Assembly (NCBI RefSeq): GCF_000718135.1
Contig: NZ_JOEM01000009.1
Span: forward strand, 186,001-250,000
Direction: 5' to 3'
Origin: Streptomyces cyaneofuscatus
Lineage (GTDB): Bacteria; Actinomycetota; Actinomycetes; Streptomycetales; Streptomycetaceae
DNA: 64,000 nucleotides
The notes under the pieces are model-generated. The model saw nothing but the letters and a program-made list of their open reading frames with translations. It searched no databases and was not told the DNA's origin. The translations under genes were made by a program, and so were the position numbers. This document shows positions 28,084-32,522 of this stretch, piece by piece (position 1 is the first letter of the stretch; every line of letters begins with the position of its first letter).

Positions 28084-31000
28084 TCAGCCGCCGGAAAGTG
28101 CCGTGCGGGACAGGAGTTCCCTCGCCGCCGTCCTCGTCGCCTCGTCCTCGTCGTTCAGGGCCACCTCGCGCAGGACGGCACCCGTGCGGGGGCTCGACGG
28201 CCAGCCCAGTGCCAGCATGTGGAGGACCTTCCGCCGTACCTCCGGGTGGGCGTCCCCGGCCGCCCGGGAGCCGACCAGAGCCTCCCCCTCCTCGCCGCCG
28301 GCCCCGGTCACCCACCAGCGGAGCGCGGTGAACCGCACGTAGTGGTCGGGGTCGGTGACGGCGCACCGGCGGAAGGCCTCCTGGGTGTCCTGAAGGCCGC
28401 CCCAGCGGAGGCCCAGCGCGTTGAGCGCACCCACGCGGGTGCGCTGGTCGGTGTCGTCGGTGCCCTCGGTGACGGCGCGCACCAGAACGTCCCGGACGCC
28501 CGGGAGATGGGCCCAGTGCTCACACAGGGCGTGCAGCGCCGTGTTCCGACAGCGGTGCCCGGGATCTGCCGCGGCGTTCGTCACCAAGGCACCGACATCG
28601 GCACGGTCCGTCCACCGTGTGGCCAGCAGCTTCATGGCGGTACTGCCGACCAGGCGGTCCTCGTGCTCGGCCACGATCCGCATCAGCACGGCCAGGGCTT
28701 CGTCGTCGTCGGGCCAGTCGTCCGCCAGCGCGTCGAGTGCGTTGGCGCTGGTGAAGTGGTAGGGGTGGTCGGCAGCGGCGAGGACCAGCGCGCGCGCTTC
28801 CTGATGGGAGGACCAGTGCTTCGCCAGACCTAGCAGCACGGTGGCGCGGGTGAGTCCGTCCCACTCGTCGTCGCCGCAGGCGCGAATCAGCAGGTCGCGA
28901 ACCTCGTCCCGATCGGCCCAGTGGTCGGCCAGCGTCCACAGCGCTGTTCTGCGAACCTCGGGGCTCCGATCGTCGGTGGCCACCCGGACGACGACACTGG
29001 GGGCGTCCTGGTCGTCGTCGGCGTAACGGACGCCGATCACCTCCACAGCGGCGCCGCGGACCTGCTCGGGCCTGTCCTCGTGGGTGCTGAGGAGGATCAG
29101 GGACCGGACGTGCGGATCGCGGGACCACCGCTCGCCCAGGTGTTTGAGGGCGGCTACCTGGACGTCGGGGCTCTGGTCCGCCGTGGCGGCACGGACGAGT
29201 GCCTCGCGGACGCCGACGTACGACGGCCACTTCCTCGCCAGTATCCCCAAGGCCGTGGTGCGGGTGGCCTCGTGGCCCGCGGCGGAGGAACGGCTGATGA
29301 GGAGGTCACGGATCGCGTCGCTCCGGGGGGCGTGTTCGCCGAGTGCACGGATCGCATGCCGGGGCAGCTCCTGGCCGGTGTCGTCGGCGGCCAGCCGCAT
29401 AAGGAACGCGAGAGCGTCCGGGTAGCCGGTGCAGTAGCGTTCGAGCGCCTCGACCGCGACGCTGCGCGTGTTCGCCTGCTCGTCGTCCTGGGCCCGCCGG
29501 ATGAGCAGCGACCGGACCCGCTCGTCGCCGTGCCACCGTTGGCCGAGGGCCCGCAGTGCGTCGCTGCGCATGAACGGATGGCCGCCCTCGATCGCGGTCC
29601 GCATGGCCAGATCACGGATGGACTCGTCGTCGGACCACCAGGCGCAGAGGACGTGGAGCGCCGCGCCGCGCGTACCCTCGGCGGGGTCCTCGGTCACCCG
29701 GGAGATGAGGAACGCCCGGACGTCCTCCCTGGCGTGCCACACCTCACCGAGCACCTCCAGCGCCATGGAGCGGACTCTGCGACCGGAGGGGGCCGTCGCC
29801 TCGCGCAGGACGAGCCCGCGGAGTACGTCGTCGTCCGGTCTCCGCAGCGCCAGCTCCGAGAGGAACATCAGACGGTCGAAGCCGTGCCAGCTCCCCCGGG
29901 CGAGTGCGGCCAGCTCCTCCTCGTCCTGTTCCAGGGCGAAGGCCAGGACCGCGGCCGGCTCCTCGCTGAAGGAGAACTGGCCGCTGAGCCGGTACCACCT
30001 CAGGTAGGGGGCGCGCCCGGCCCAGTACCGGCTGAAGGACGACAGGGCGGACCAGGCCTCGCCCAGGAGCCAGGGCCCTTTGGAACCACGCGTGTTCAGG
30101 ACAGCTGTCAGAGCACCGACGACGGCGACGCTCCGGGCCGCCAGCGCTCCCGGCTTCGCCACCTCCGCCAGCGCACGCAGGGCCAGCACCGCGCAGGAGG
30201 CATCGACCGGATCCCGGCGCCGGGCGTGGAGCTCCAGGAGACGGTCGACGGCGGCCGTCGCGTCGGCGCTGTCCAGTTGCCCGATGAGCAGCAGCAGTGC
30301 CTCGTGCCAGGCGGGGTCGGCGGCTCGCGCGGCCACGACCTCCTCGATGAGCTCGTCGGGAGTCCAGCGGCCTTCCTCCTGGTAGCGGTACGCGATGTCG
30401 GCCGCCGCCAGGTATTCGAGGAACGCGCGGTGGACGAAACCGTAGATCTGACCCCCGTAGTGGGCCAGGATGAAGTTGCGTTCGTGCAGCTGCGTGACCA
30501 TGGCCCGCGCGGCGGGCACGGCCTGGACCCGGGGCACTCCGCGCTGTCCCAGGTAGTCGCCGAAAGCGCCTTCCAGGTCTCTCACGTGCAGGTGGTTGCC
30601 GGCGATACCGCTGTGGCCCTCCTGCATGCGGGAGGCCAGCAGGCGCAGGAGTTCCAGGCGCTCGGGCGGCCCCAGGGCGTCCAGCACCGCCGCGGCGGCC
30701 GGGGCCGAGGGGACGGTGAGCAGCTTGGCGGTCCGGTCCCAGTGCTCGACGAGAACCGCGACCGCCTGCTCGTACGCTTCGCGCCGGTTGTTCGGGAGGG
30801 CACGGCGGCTGCCGATGATGGCCAGGATGGTGAGGAGGAGGGGGTTGCCCGCCATCTCCTCCAGGGGCCGTGAGTTCTCCGTCGCCGACGTCATCCGCTG
30901 CGCCAGCTCCTTCGCCCGCGCGGGATCGTCGGCGAAGGCGCTGCGGTACCAGCGGTCCAGGAAGGCGGAGATCCGTTCCTCGTCCAGGTCCTGGACCTTG

Positions 31001-31998
31001 AAGTGGGCGAAGCCCGCTCCGTCCAGGACCGCGCGCTGGTAGCCGATGACACGGGACGTCACGGTGATCCGGGCCGCGGGCCAGCGGTCGGCGAAGGCGG
31101 CCATGCGGTCGGTGGCCTCCGCCCGCACCTGGGGGTCGAAGATCTCGTCAAGGCCTTCGAAGACCACCCAGGCCCGCCCCTCGGCCAGCAGGCACTCCCG
31201 TACGGAGGGAGGGACACCGAGCCCGAAATCGCTGTGCCGGTGGTCGAGGAACTCCTCGAAGCCGCTGTGCCGCCAGCGGTCGTCGGCGTACTGCCGCAGC
31301 TCCACCATCAGGGGGACCAGGCCCCGCAGCGGGCGCGGGGCCTCCTCCGGCTCGCCGCGGGTGAGCAGCAGCGTCAGGTAGCGCATGAGCGCGGACTTGC
31401 CCCCGCCGGGATCACCGAGGAGGACCGTACGCTCGCCGGAGGGTCCGGCCAGCGCTTCCAGCACCCCCTGCTCCGGCCGTTCCAGGTAGGAGTTCCGCAG
31501 GTGCTCGAACGACTCCCGGTCCGTGCCCGGTGGCAGGAACCCGTCGTCCCCGAAGCCCTCCTCCAGCAGGCGTCTCTCCAGCTCCCGGGGCAGTTGTACG
31601 GGTGGTGGATCGGCCCGCACGGCGGGGACGACGAAGACGTCCGTCAGCCGGATCACCGGGGCGTTCTCTCCCGGCGGGGTGAGAACTCCCAGGTCCAGGC
31701 GGCCGTACACCTGCTCGGCACGCGACGCGTACCGCGCGACGGCATCCGCGACCTCCTGATCGGAGGCCCGGTCGGGGGTGGCCGGCCCCGGAGCCGTGGC
31801 CAGCGTCAGGCTCTTGATGATCGTGGCGCCGTCCCCGGTGACCACGATCTCCGCGTCCCCGCCGACGGCGACGGCCCGTTCGGCGCCCGCGTGCGTCTTG
31901 CCCCGCTTTTCCGCACCGGGCGACGGTCCTCCGATCAACGGTCCTCCAAGTGATGCGGGGCGCAGCGGCCGGACAAGGTTATCGGCGGATTCCGGCAT
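28084..31998 (-). CDS. NACHT-type STAND NTPase with C-terminal HEAT-like repeats
   Basis: 1304-residue signalling NTPase. The N-terminus carries RAVAVGGDAEIVVTGDG (41-57), a motif shared with the divergent membrane protein. The NACHT core has a Walker A loop GDPGGGKS (195-202), Walker B in AWVVFEGLDEIFD (276-288) and sensor ITVTSR (311-316). Then come the EMAGNPLLLTILA and FVHRAFLEYLAAADIAYRY blocks typical of NACHT winged-helix regions. From about residue 690 there are 17 HEAT-like repeats of about 35 residues, each with a xxALxxLxxxW pattern. Related bacterial NACHT proteins act in anti-phage defence. ATG 31998 has AAGGGGA upstream. Immune function is inferred. Confidence 0.9.
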   Translation of the reverse strand: MPESADNLVRPLRPASLGGPLIGGPSPGAEKRGKTHAGAERAVAVGGDAEIVVTGDGATIIKSLTLATAPGPATPDRASDQEVADAVARYASRAEQVYGRLDLGVLTPPGENAPVIRLTDVFVVPAVRADPPPVQLPRELERRLLEEGFGDDGFLPPGTDRESFEHLRNSYLERPEQGVLEALAGPSGERTVLLGDPGGGKSALMRYLTLLLTRGEPEEAPRPLRGLVPLMVELRQYADDRWRHSGFEEFLDHRHSDFGLGVPPSVRECLLAEGRAWVVFEGLDEIFDPQVRAEATDRMAAFADRWPAARITVTSRVIGYQRAVLDGAGFAHFKVQDLDEERISAFLDRWYRSAFADDPARAKELAQRMTSATENSRPLEEMAGNPLLLTILAIIGSRRALPNNRREAYEQAVAVLVEHWDRTAKLLTVPSAPAAAAVLDALGPPERLELLRLLASRMQEGHSGIAGNHLHVRDLEGAFGDYLGQRGVPRVQAVPAARAMVTQLHERNFILAHYGGQIYGFVHRAFLEYLAAADIAYRYQEEGRWTPDELIEEVVAARAADPAWHEALLLLIGQLDSADATAAVDRLLELHARRRDPVDASCAVLALRALAEVAKPGALAARSVAVVGALTAVLNTRGSKGPWLLGEAWSALSSFSRYWAGRAPYLRWYRLSGQFSFSEEPAAVLAFALEQDEEELAALARGSWHGFDRLMFLSELALRRPDDDVLRGLVLREATAPSGRRVRSMALEVLGEVWHAREDVRAFLISRVTEDPAEGTRGAALHVLCAWWSDDESIRDLAMRTAIEGGHPFMRSDALRALGQRWHGDERVRSLLIRRAQDDEQANTRSVAVEALERYCTGYPDALAFLMRLAADDTGQELPRHAIRALGEHAPRSDAIRDLLISRSSAAGHEATRTTALGILARKWPSYVGVREALVRAATADQSPDVQVAALKHLGERWSRDPHVRSLILLSTHEDRPEQVRGAAVEVIGVRYADDDQDAPSVVVRVATDDRSPEVRRTALWTLADHWADRDEVRDLLIRACGDDEWDGLTRATVLLGLAKHWSSHQEARALVLAAADHPYHFTSANALDALADDWPDDDEALAVLMRIVAEHEDRLVGSTAMKLLATRWTDRADVGALVTNAAADPGHRCRNTALHALCEHWAHLPGVRDVLVRAVTEGTDDTDQRTRVGALNALGLRWGGLQDTQEAFRRCAVTDPDHYVRFTALRWWVTGAGGEEGEALVGSRAAGDAHPEVRRKVLHMLALGWPSSPRTGAVLREVALNDEDEATRTAARELLSRTALSGG

Positions 31999-32057
31999 CC
32001 GATTCCCCTTCGGGCAAAGCCTGTTGGGTGCCGTGTGACGGTGCCAGGATGGTGCTC
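31999..32057. promoter_or_regulatory. 59-bp divergent promoter region of the NACHT system
   Basis: The start codons of the NACHT gene and of the membrane-protein gene are only 59 bases apart on opposite strands. Both Shine-Dalgarno sequences lie inside it (AAGGGGA on the minus strand, AGGA on the plus strand). Promoters must overlap each other or the other gene, so the pair is probably co-regulated. No -10/-35 pair could be assigned with confidence. Confidence 0.5.
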
Positions 32058-32522
32058 ATGACTCGACGGGCAAGGATCATCGTGTGGGGCGCCTCCGTCC
32101 TGTGCGTGCTGGTGGCCGCAGGGCTCGGCGCCCTGGCGGTCGCGGGAGGCCTGGACCGGGCGGACAAGGTGGCGAGCATCGTGGGGGCGGTCATCGGCCT
32201 GGCCGGGCTGGTCGTCTCCCTCTACGCGTTGCACCGCAGCCCTGCCCCGGGGCCGGTTCCCCCGGCTCCCGGCCCGGCCGCGGGGACGGGAAGTGCCACT
32301 GTCGCGGAAGGCGTCCGGTCGGTGGCCGCCGGTGGGAGCATCGGGCGGGCCGTCACGGGTGACGGCGTCTCGCTCACGGGCCCCGCTCCCGTGCTGCCTC
32401 CGAGCAGCGGCAGCGGCGGCGGCGGCGGGGCGGCAGGCTCGGCCCGGGCCACGGGCGAGCGGAGTGTCGCGGCCGGCGGTGACATCGGTGAGGCCGTCAC
32501 CGGCGACGGGCCCCGGGCCTGA
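32058..32522 (+). CDS. Two-helix membrane protein sharing a motif with the NACHT NTPase
   Basis: 154 residues. Two membrane helices (about 7-29 and 38-58) are separated by a short DRADK loop. A Pro/Ala/Gly-rich cytoplasmic or external tail carries two copies of a 17-residue motif, RSVAAGGSIGRAVTGDG (87-103) and RSVAAGGDIGEAVTGDG (135-151). The divergent NACHT protein has a third version at its residues 41-57. This suggests the membrane protein is the partner, anchor or effector of the NTPase. ATG 32058 has AGGA eight bases upstream. No known domain name fits the tail. Confidence 0.75.
   Translation: MTRRARIIVWGASVLCVLVAAGLGALAVAGGLDRADKVASIVGAVIGLAGLVVSLYALHRSPAPGPVPPAPGPAAGTGSATVAEGVRSVAAGGSIGRAVTGDGVSLTGPAPVLPPSSGSGGGGGAAGSARATGERSVAAGGDIGEAVTGDGPRA

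Follow-up and report, generated by a model that had tools for sequence, protein, structure and literature searches.

Ten motif profiles, BASS 1-10, and Bell-domain effectors were reportedly described by Dyrka et al. in 2020 (J Mol Biol 432:6005). According to passages in several papers, BASS motifs are common to the N-termini of NOD-like receptors (NLRs) and the C-termini of Bell proteins encoded by adjacent genes (PMC7889193, PMC8086366, PMC9815663, PMC12261475); they occur mainly in filamentous actinobacteria and cyanobacteria, and the tags are sometimes repeated (PMC7889193, PMC8086366, PMC9815663). In the fungal NWD2/HET-S system, as outlined in part of PMC12881547, repeat R0 lies at the extreme N-terminus of the NLR, while R1 and R2 are C-terminal on a membrane-acting protein encoded by the neighbouring gene, and the oligomerised NLR serves as an amyloid template for the conversion of this executioner to its active form. 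Here we describe a gene pair in a 64,000-nucleotide stretch of Streptomyces cyaneofuscatus DNA (contig NZ_JOEM01000009.1, positions 186,001 to 250,000; hereafter the window). It consists of a NACHT-HEAT NTPase of the STAND class, the putative sensor, and a divergently encoded two-helix membrane protein, the proposed effector, which share a 17-residue motif, or tag. The pair is probably a two-gene NLR-type signalling unit in which the NTPase templates the effector tail, triggering the membrane effector.

The likeness to BASS/Bell pairs is one of layout. An NLR gene adjoins an effector gene (divergently in the window; also in 32 of 56 relatives), and one short motif is found at the NLR N-terminus and the effector C-terminus (in the window and in 33 of 56 relatives). 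In the window type, the effector domain is a hairpin of two helices, roughly 60 residues long, and is also found fused to STAND NTPases. As in HET-S/NWD2, the window has one sensor repeat and two effector repeats with a variable linker, and 40 of 55 tails in the family are repeated. The window pair is bacterial, unlike fungal NWD2/HET-S, and the HeLo executioner domain is not recognised in its effector (no Pfam match below E 0.3; a hairpin in the AlphaFold2, or AF2, model). Where HET-S/NWD2 has a two-rung β-solenoid core, the window effector has predicted strands and no fold match in the PDB. NWD2 carries WD40 repeats where the window sensor carries HEAT repeats.

The bNACHT antiphage NLRs, reportedly described by Kibby et al. 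in 2023, are bacterial NACHT NTPases, as is the window sensor by its Pfam NACHT match, but the proposed effector of the window would act in trans through its tag. The profiles of PADLOC 2.0.0 gave 0 families for either protein up to E 1. SLATT proteins, small predicted pore-forming effectors with two transmembrane segments, belong to conflict systems and are described together with nucleotide-signal systems, according to a section of PMC7159879; the window effector is likewise a small protein with two transmembrane segments but has no Pfam SLATT match up to E 1 and carries a duplicated tag tail. No publication on this hairpin was found in searches of a library of open-licence papers, and five motif strings did not occur in the literature of that kind that was searched. 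An earlier sequence-only reading of the window had named no system with this pair. The layout, however, is that of the NLR amyloid signalosomes (HET-S/NWD2 and, in bacteria, BASS); the signalling principle is already known.

The motif copies that the sequence-only reading had placed in the NACHT protein (residues 41-57) and in the membrane protein (residues 87-103 and 135-151) are found there. Compared directly, the NACHT copy shares 11 of its 17 residues with tail copy 2 and 10 of 17 with tail copy 1, and the two tail copies agree with each other at 15 of 17. BLASTP of the sensor against the effector recovered the motif segment at E 0.007, with 12 of 18 residues identical. With a position matrix made from the tail segments of 95 membrane-protein homologues, some of these segments being non-motif, the NACHT copy scored 20.4, and the best of 5000 shuffles of the N-terminal 200 residues of the sensor scored 14.9. 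By this matrix the NACHT protein ranked second among the 226 open reading frames (ORFs) of the window, behind the membrane protein, whose score is high by construction.

Relatives of the pair were compared in 76 loci, the window included, which came from the sensor and effector searches and are a non-random sample; gene starts in the fetched loci are approximate, being those of our own gene caller. These loci (L numbers below) hold 73 hairpin copies, 56 of which are stand-alone proteins with a short, usually duplicated tag, while 17 continue into a larger protein. An ORF of at least 600 amino acids with a Walker A motif lies within 300 bp of 32 of the 56 stand-alone effectors, as compared with 3 of 135 control small genes (Fisher p 7e-18); the controls were small genes of the same loci more than 1.5 kb away, for which effector-adjacent ORFs were left uncounted. 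This adjacency supports the proposal that a sensor NTPase is paired with a membrane effector or anchor. Pfam searches on 24 neighbours of stand-alone effectors, and on one further neighbour at L056, gave a match to an NTPase family (NB-ARC, NACHT, AAA or nSTAND) in 19 of the 24, nine of them above the curated cut-off and many with TPR repeats. The neighbours at L055 and L058 have TPR repeats only, and those at L066, L117 and L128 (about 350 amino acids) have no match. NACHT-HEAT is the partner in the window and not throughout the family, in which NB-ARC-TPR and other STAND-type partners are common.

The tail of the effector is matched by the N-terminus of a neighbouring ORF in 33 of the 56 cases (above the 99th percentile of 475 distant ORFs). 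As a guard against taking the best of several near ORFs, each effector was also given as many randomly drawn distant ORFs; this yielded a mean of 1.2 matches and a maximum of 5 in 2000 draws, from which the one effector whose tail has 10 residues is left out. Among the 33 matches, L126 looks spurious (wrong overlapping frame), and L066, L134, L136, L140 and L146 are matched by eye below the threshold and are uncounted. When 30 Walker-A neighbours were picked without regard to the motif, cognate tails and N-termini scored 65.5 on average as compared with 43.7 (standard deviation 2.5) after permutation, and none of 20,000 permutations scored as high. The 30 contain at least four mis-assigned neighbours (L057, L107, L120 and the second of L121) and a window row with a false Walker match; with that row corrected the values are 67.2 and 44.7. 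In the 32 pairs selected for matching (the 33 without L126), tags covary after removal of the similarity of NTPase body and hairpin (partial Mantel 0.685, 0 of 5000). Among related pairs, a change of tag on one partner seems as a rule to be accompanied by a change on the other.

The relatives of the window sensor itself offer a closer view. There are 448 sensor homologues, and the N-termini of the 120 listed differ, including several kinds of tag-like motif, helix-turn-helix-like starts and one hairpin fusion. By eye, the tag is a single copy on the sensor side across homologues. At least 15 members of the window NACHT family occur in 199 Streptomyces genomes; this and the other genome count for these Streptomyces are lower bounds, 3-4 NACHT candidates or 31 hairpin candidates having been scored per genome. 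Seven of the 15 have an adjacent effector, and in all seven pairs the sensor N-terminus and the effector tail bear the same kind of tag, six above the matching threshold and L038 by eye. At least three kinds are in use among the seven. Type 1 occurs in the window, L053 and L116, and a GNA variant in L065. Type 2 (ANSG-like) occurs in L071 and, judged by eye, in L038, and type 3 (Q-I/V...GDV) in L070. The sensor and effector genes of L070 overlap by four bases, and therefore the shared tag is not a single DNA stretch read twice. Tags thus differ between loci and match within them even inside one NACHT-HEAT family, which supports the earlier suggestion of recruitment by homotypic motif contact. 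That reading had also held that it would fail if homologues of the NTPase regularly lacked the membrane partner, and this is in part the case, with 7 of the 15 members having an adjacent effector, 7 having none and 1 being interrupted by a contig end. Four of those without one have another N-terminus, helix-turn-helix-like by eye, and neither the tag nor an adjacent two-helix protein of the hairpin family.

Some other NACHT-HEAT proteins deserve mention. A large class begins with GERAVGAGGDVKAAATGD-like motifs (L034, L068 and many of the listed homologues, e.g. P0179 and P0199) and has no adjacent two-helix protein of the hairpin family at the two loci examined, L034 and L068. In genome G049, about 311 kb separate L057, with a three-copy-tag effector that has no matching neighbour, from L068, with a tagged NACHT-HEAT protein that has no adjacent effector; the two are possibly a split pair. 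Small hydrophobic ORFs of 68 and 74 amino acids adjoin, and are divergent from, untagged NACHT relatives at L043:3723-3929 (+) and L072:8152-8376 (+), neither matching the hairpin profile. The sole other relative of the NACHT protein in the genome of the window at E 0.001 is L002 (G000:C6:27135-28310), whose N-terminus is trypsin-like by eye and whose first 200 residues have no tag and no hairpin.

A profile of the two-helix domain alone has matches at E 1e-4 or better in at least 59 of the 199 Streptomyces genomes; of the 197 genomes in a class-wide sample, 13 had the hairpin at E 1e-6, as did 6 of the 90 genera. A Walker A motif was recognised by pattern in 15 of the 17 fused copies. Sixteen of the fusions have more than 250 residues past the hairpin; the other, L131, was counted by its Walker A motif, the frame ending after 160. 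Eight fusions were scanned with Pfam at E 0.001: two have NB-ARC with TPR, three have NACHT (one just under the cut-off), and the remaining three have WD40-type repeats only, one of them weak. The sole match to the hairpin profile among the 120 listed sensor homologues, P0197, has the hairpin fused ahead of NACHT-HEAT without a tag (E 3e-16). These cis fusions indicate that the hairpin functions with STAND NTPases, whether as an output or an anchor, and the proposed link between NTPase and membrane partner gains from the same hairpin being joined directly to STAND NTPases that lack the tag. At L131 (genome G026), a trans effector pair lies about 8 kb from the hairpin with its in-frame Walker A motif, after which the frame stops. 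The annotation of P0026, from Actinomadura madurae, places the two-helix protein at the C-terminal end of a DUF397 protein.

The two helices claimed for the membrane protein are supported by two hydrophobic stretches in the hydropathy profile and by helices at residues 3-29 and 32-59 of the AF2 model. Judged by eye, most of the 95 homologues share the two helices and carry the tail tag twice, with a variable Pro/Gly linker in between, and the internal tail repeat beat all of 100 shuffles in 40 of 55 tails. The approximately 60-residue hairpin has no Pfam match below E 0.3. The AF2 model of the effector has a mean predicted local distance difference test score (pLDDT) of 75, with 79-85 over the tag copies, and a predicted template modelling score of 0.42; three short strands are predicted in each tail copy, which in this protein is of type 1. 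Lysine and arginine together average 2.0 ahead of helix 1 and 0.7 past helix 2, and the inter-helix loop averages 0.9 lysine plus arginine and 2.2 aspartate plus glutamate. Because of this charge pattern around the helices, both ends of the hairpin, the tail included, are suggested to face the cytosol, where the sensor is. An apparent frameshift was seen in the effector tail of L053.

The sequences show the architecture, the linkage, tags that match between neighbours and differ in kind from pair to pair, and the cis fusions; from these we infer oligomerisation, β templating or amyloid formation, membrane damage, phage as the trigger and a role in phage defence. The NACHT-HEAT protein would be the sensor, its HEAT repeats probably keeping it inactive or reading a ligand. 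NTP-driven oligomerisation would gather many copies of its single N-terminal tag. By analogy to NWD2/HET-S, the clustered tags could form a β-rich template, and the effector would fold and stack its two tail tags on it. Concentration of the two-helix hairpins in the membrane may then cause damage or depolarisation, so that the infected hyphal compartment would be stopped or killed. The tag would be an exchangeable address that holds each sensor to its own effector.

Several observations weigh against this templating model. No significantly matching neighbour was found at the threshold for 23 of the 56 effectors, and 3 of the 15 NACHT-family members have a tag or tag-like start with no adjacent effector. 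The AF2 tail of the type-3 effector (L070) has no strands and a pLDDT near or under 50, so that the models support β folding for one tag type only, and no solved structure in the PDB credibly resembles the AF2 effector model. Tag covariation is weak in the motif-blind pairs, for which motif extraction was noisy and some neighbours mis-assigned: the partial Mantel statistic is 0.103 (424 of 5000) for all 30, 0.178 (148 of 5000) without the four mis-assigned and 0.076 (614 of 5000) with the window row corrected. Because of this weakness, concerted exchange is supported chiefly by two results, the cognate permutation test and the seven-member NACHT family. Finally, a hairpin-STAND fusion is equally expected of a plain membrane anchor. 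This last point, the small size of the hairpin with no Pfam match and the strandless type-3 tail favour an arrangement in which the tags make a small ordered contact by homotypic docking without amyloid and the hairpin is a membrane anchor or scaffold only, any killing being done by something else. We think this unlikely, although the point that speaks against it is an argument from analogy: the tag is duplicated on the membrane side (40 of 55 tails) and single, by eye, on the sensor, as in NWD2/HET-S, in which it is the executioner that carries the repeats (as given in part of PMC12881547).

The membrane protein could also inhibit the NTPase or be its immunity partner, holding it at the membrane until some trigger frees it. 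The divergent promoter region is short (59 or 119 bp), which together with tag-mediated binding would suit such a sensor and keeper, as would the tight co-directional pairing of many relatives. The hairpin fused ahead of a STAND NTPase suits an output domain better, the slot ahead of a STAND NTPase being the usual effector position; we consider such a role improbable. Least credible of all is that the shared motif is a Gly/Ala/Thr low-complexity feature common in Streptomyces proteins and the pairing due to chance. The motif is indeed rich in G, A, V and T, and the lone BLASTP comparison, at E 0.007, is weak. Against this, none of the 5000 shuffles reached the score of the NACHT copy and none of the 20,000 permutations the cognate score, tags matched between neighbours in 33 of 56 cases where 1.2 were expected, Walker-A linkage was 32 of 56 as compared with 3 of 135, and the partners in L070, L071, L117 and L128 share quite different tags. 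At the level of co-occurrence and matching, the chance explanation is refuted.

On a broader scale, the chances seem to us evenly balanced that actinobacterial STAND NTPases share the hairpin as a general output module not named before. It would be employed in two interchangeable ways, fused at the N-terminus in cis or reached in trans by short duplicated self-assembling tags that serve as swappable address codes. If so, partners would change code together, and a single genome could keep several NLR-effector lines apart while using one kind of executioner for all. Such a module would be the bacterial equivalent of HET-S/NWD2, with another killer domain. The family would also link a membrane effector to the cell death controlled by NLRs in fungi and by RHIM in animals. 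Bacterial amyloid-type NLR signalling is mostly prediction-based and its outcome in filamentous bacteria is still to be explored, as stated in a portion of PMC7889193. The hairpin family supplies paired partners, naturally differing tags and natural cis fusions, which would make tag specificity and effector action directly testable.

The features of the window pair are collected in Table 1. The NACHT domain of the sensor matches PF05729 at E 9.6e-7 with 29.2 bits, over the gathering cut-off of 26.7, which places it in the NACHT clade by Pfam. The separation of 59 bp given for the two starts holds if the ATG at codon 1 of the sensor is used. Because P0096, a homologue 96% identical to the sensor, has its first residue at the TTG that is codon 21 in the window, the gap may instead be 119 bp. 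The neighbourhood of the pair consists, by eye, of ordinary chromosomal genes.

Table 1. Features of the sensor and effector genes, in positions of the window
Feature	Position	Strand	Basis
NACHT-HEAT STAND NTPase (NLR-like putative sensor), 1304 aa from ATG	28084..31998	-	ORF, Pfam and homologues
Alternative sensor start, TTG, codon 21	31938	-	Start of homologue P0096
Sensor N-terminal tag, residues 41-57, single copy	31828..31878	-	BLASTP and position matrix
NACHT domain, sensor residues 191-352	30943..31428	-	Pfam PF05729
Best of 11 HEAT_2 stretches, sensor residues 808-887	29338..29577	-	PF13646, E 8e-33
Divergent intergenic region, 59 bp (119 bp with TTG sensor start)	31999..32057	.	
Two-helix membrane protein (proposed effector), 154 aa, within a longer open frame	32058..32522	+	
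Effector helix 1, residues 3-29	32064..32144	+	AF2; hydropathy
Effector helix 2, residues 32-59	32151..32234	+	AF2; hydropathy
Effector tag copy 1, residues 87-103	32316..32366	+	AF2 strands 81-84, 89-91, 95-100
Variable Pro/Gly-rich linker separating the tag copies	32367..32459	+	Homologue alignment
Effector tag copy 2, residues 135-151	32460..32510	+	AF2 strands 129-132, 137-139, 143-148

Further observations concern the surroundings of the stand-alone effectors. The proteins of about 350 amino acids at L066:4674-5720 (-), L117:5121-6194 (-) and L128:6525-7607 (+) have no Pfam match up to E 0.05; the two-helix proteins of these loci have a single SGNNS...DVNIGDNN-like tag, and a related tag is present on the adjoining 350-residue protein. 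At L121:5803-12337, two effectors flank one TPR protein of 1722 amino acids with a weak STAND match. The upstream effector matches the tag of the TPR protein (z 9.8) and the other does not (z 1.0), though by eye its tail belongs to that type as well. Conserved genes recognised by eye as those for YbaB and/or aspartokinase occur in 12 effector loci (at least 12 by exact strings), namely L056, L057, L059, L062, L063, L067, L110, L115, L118, L119, L140 and L160, as though such pairs favoured this place in the chromosome.

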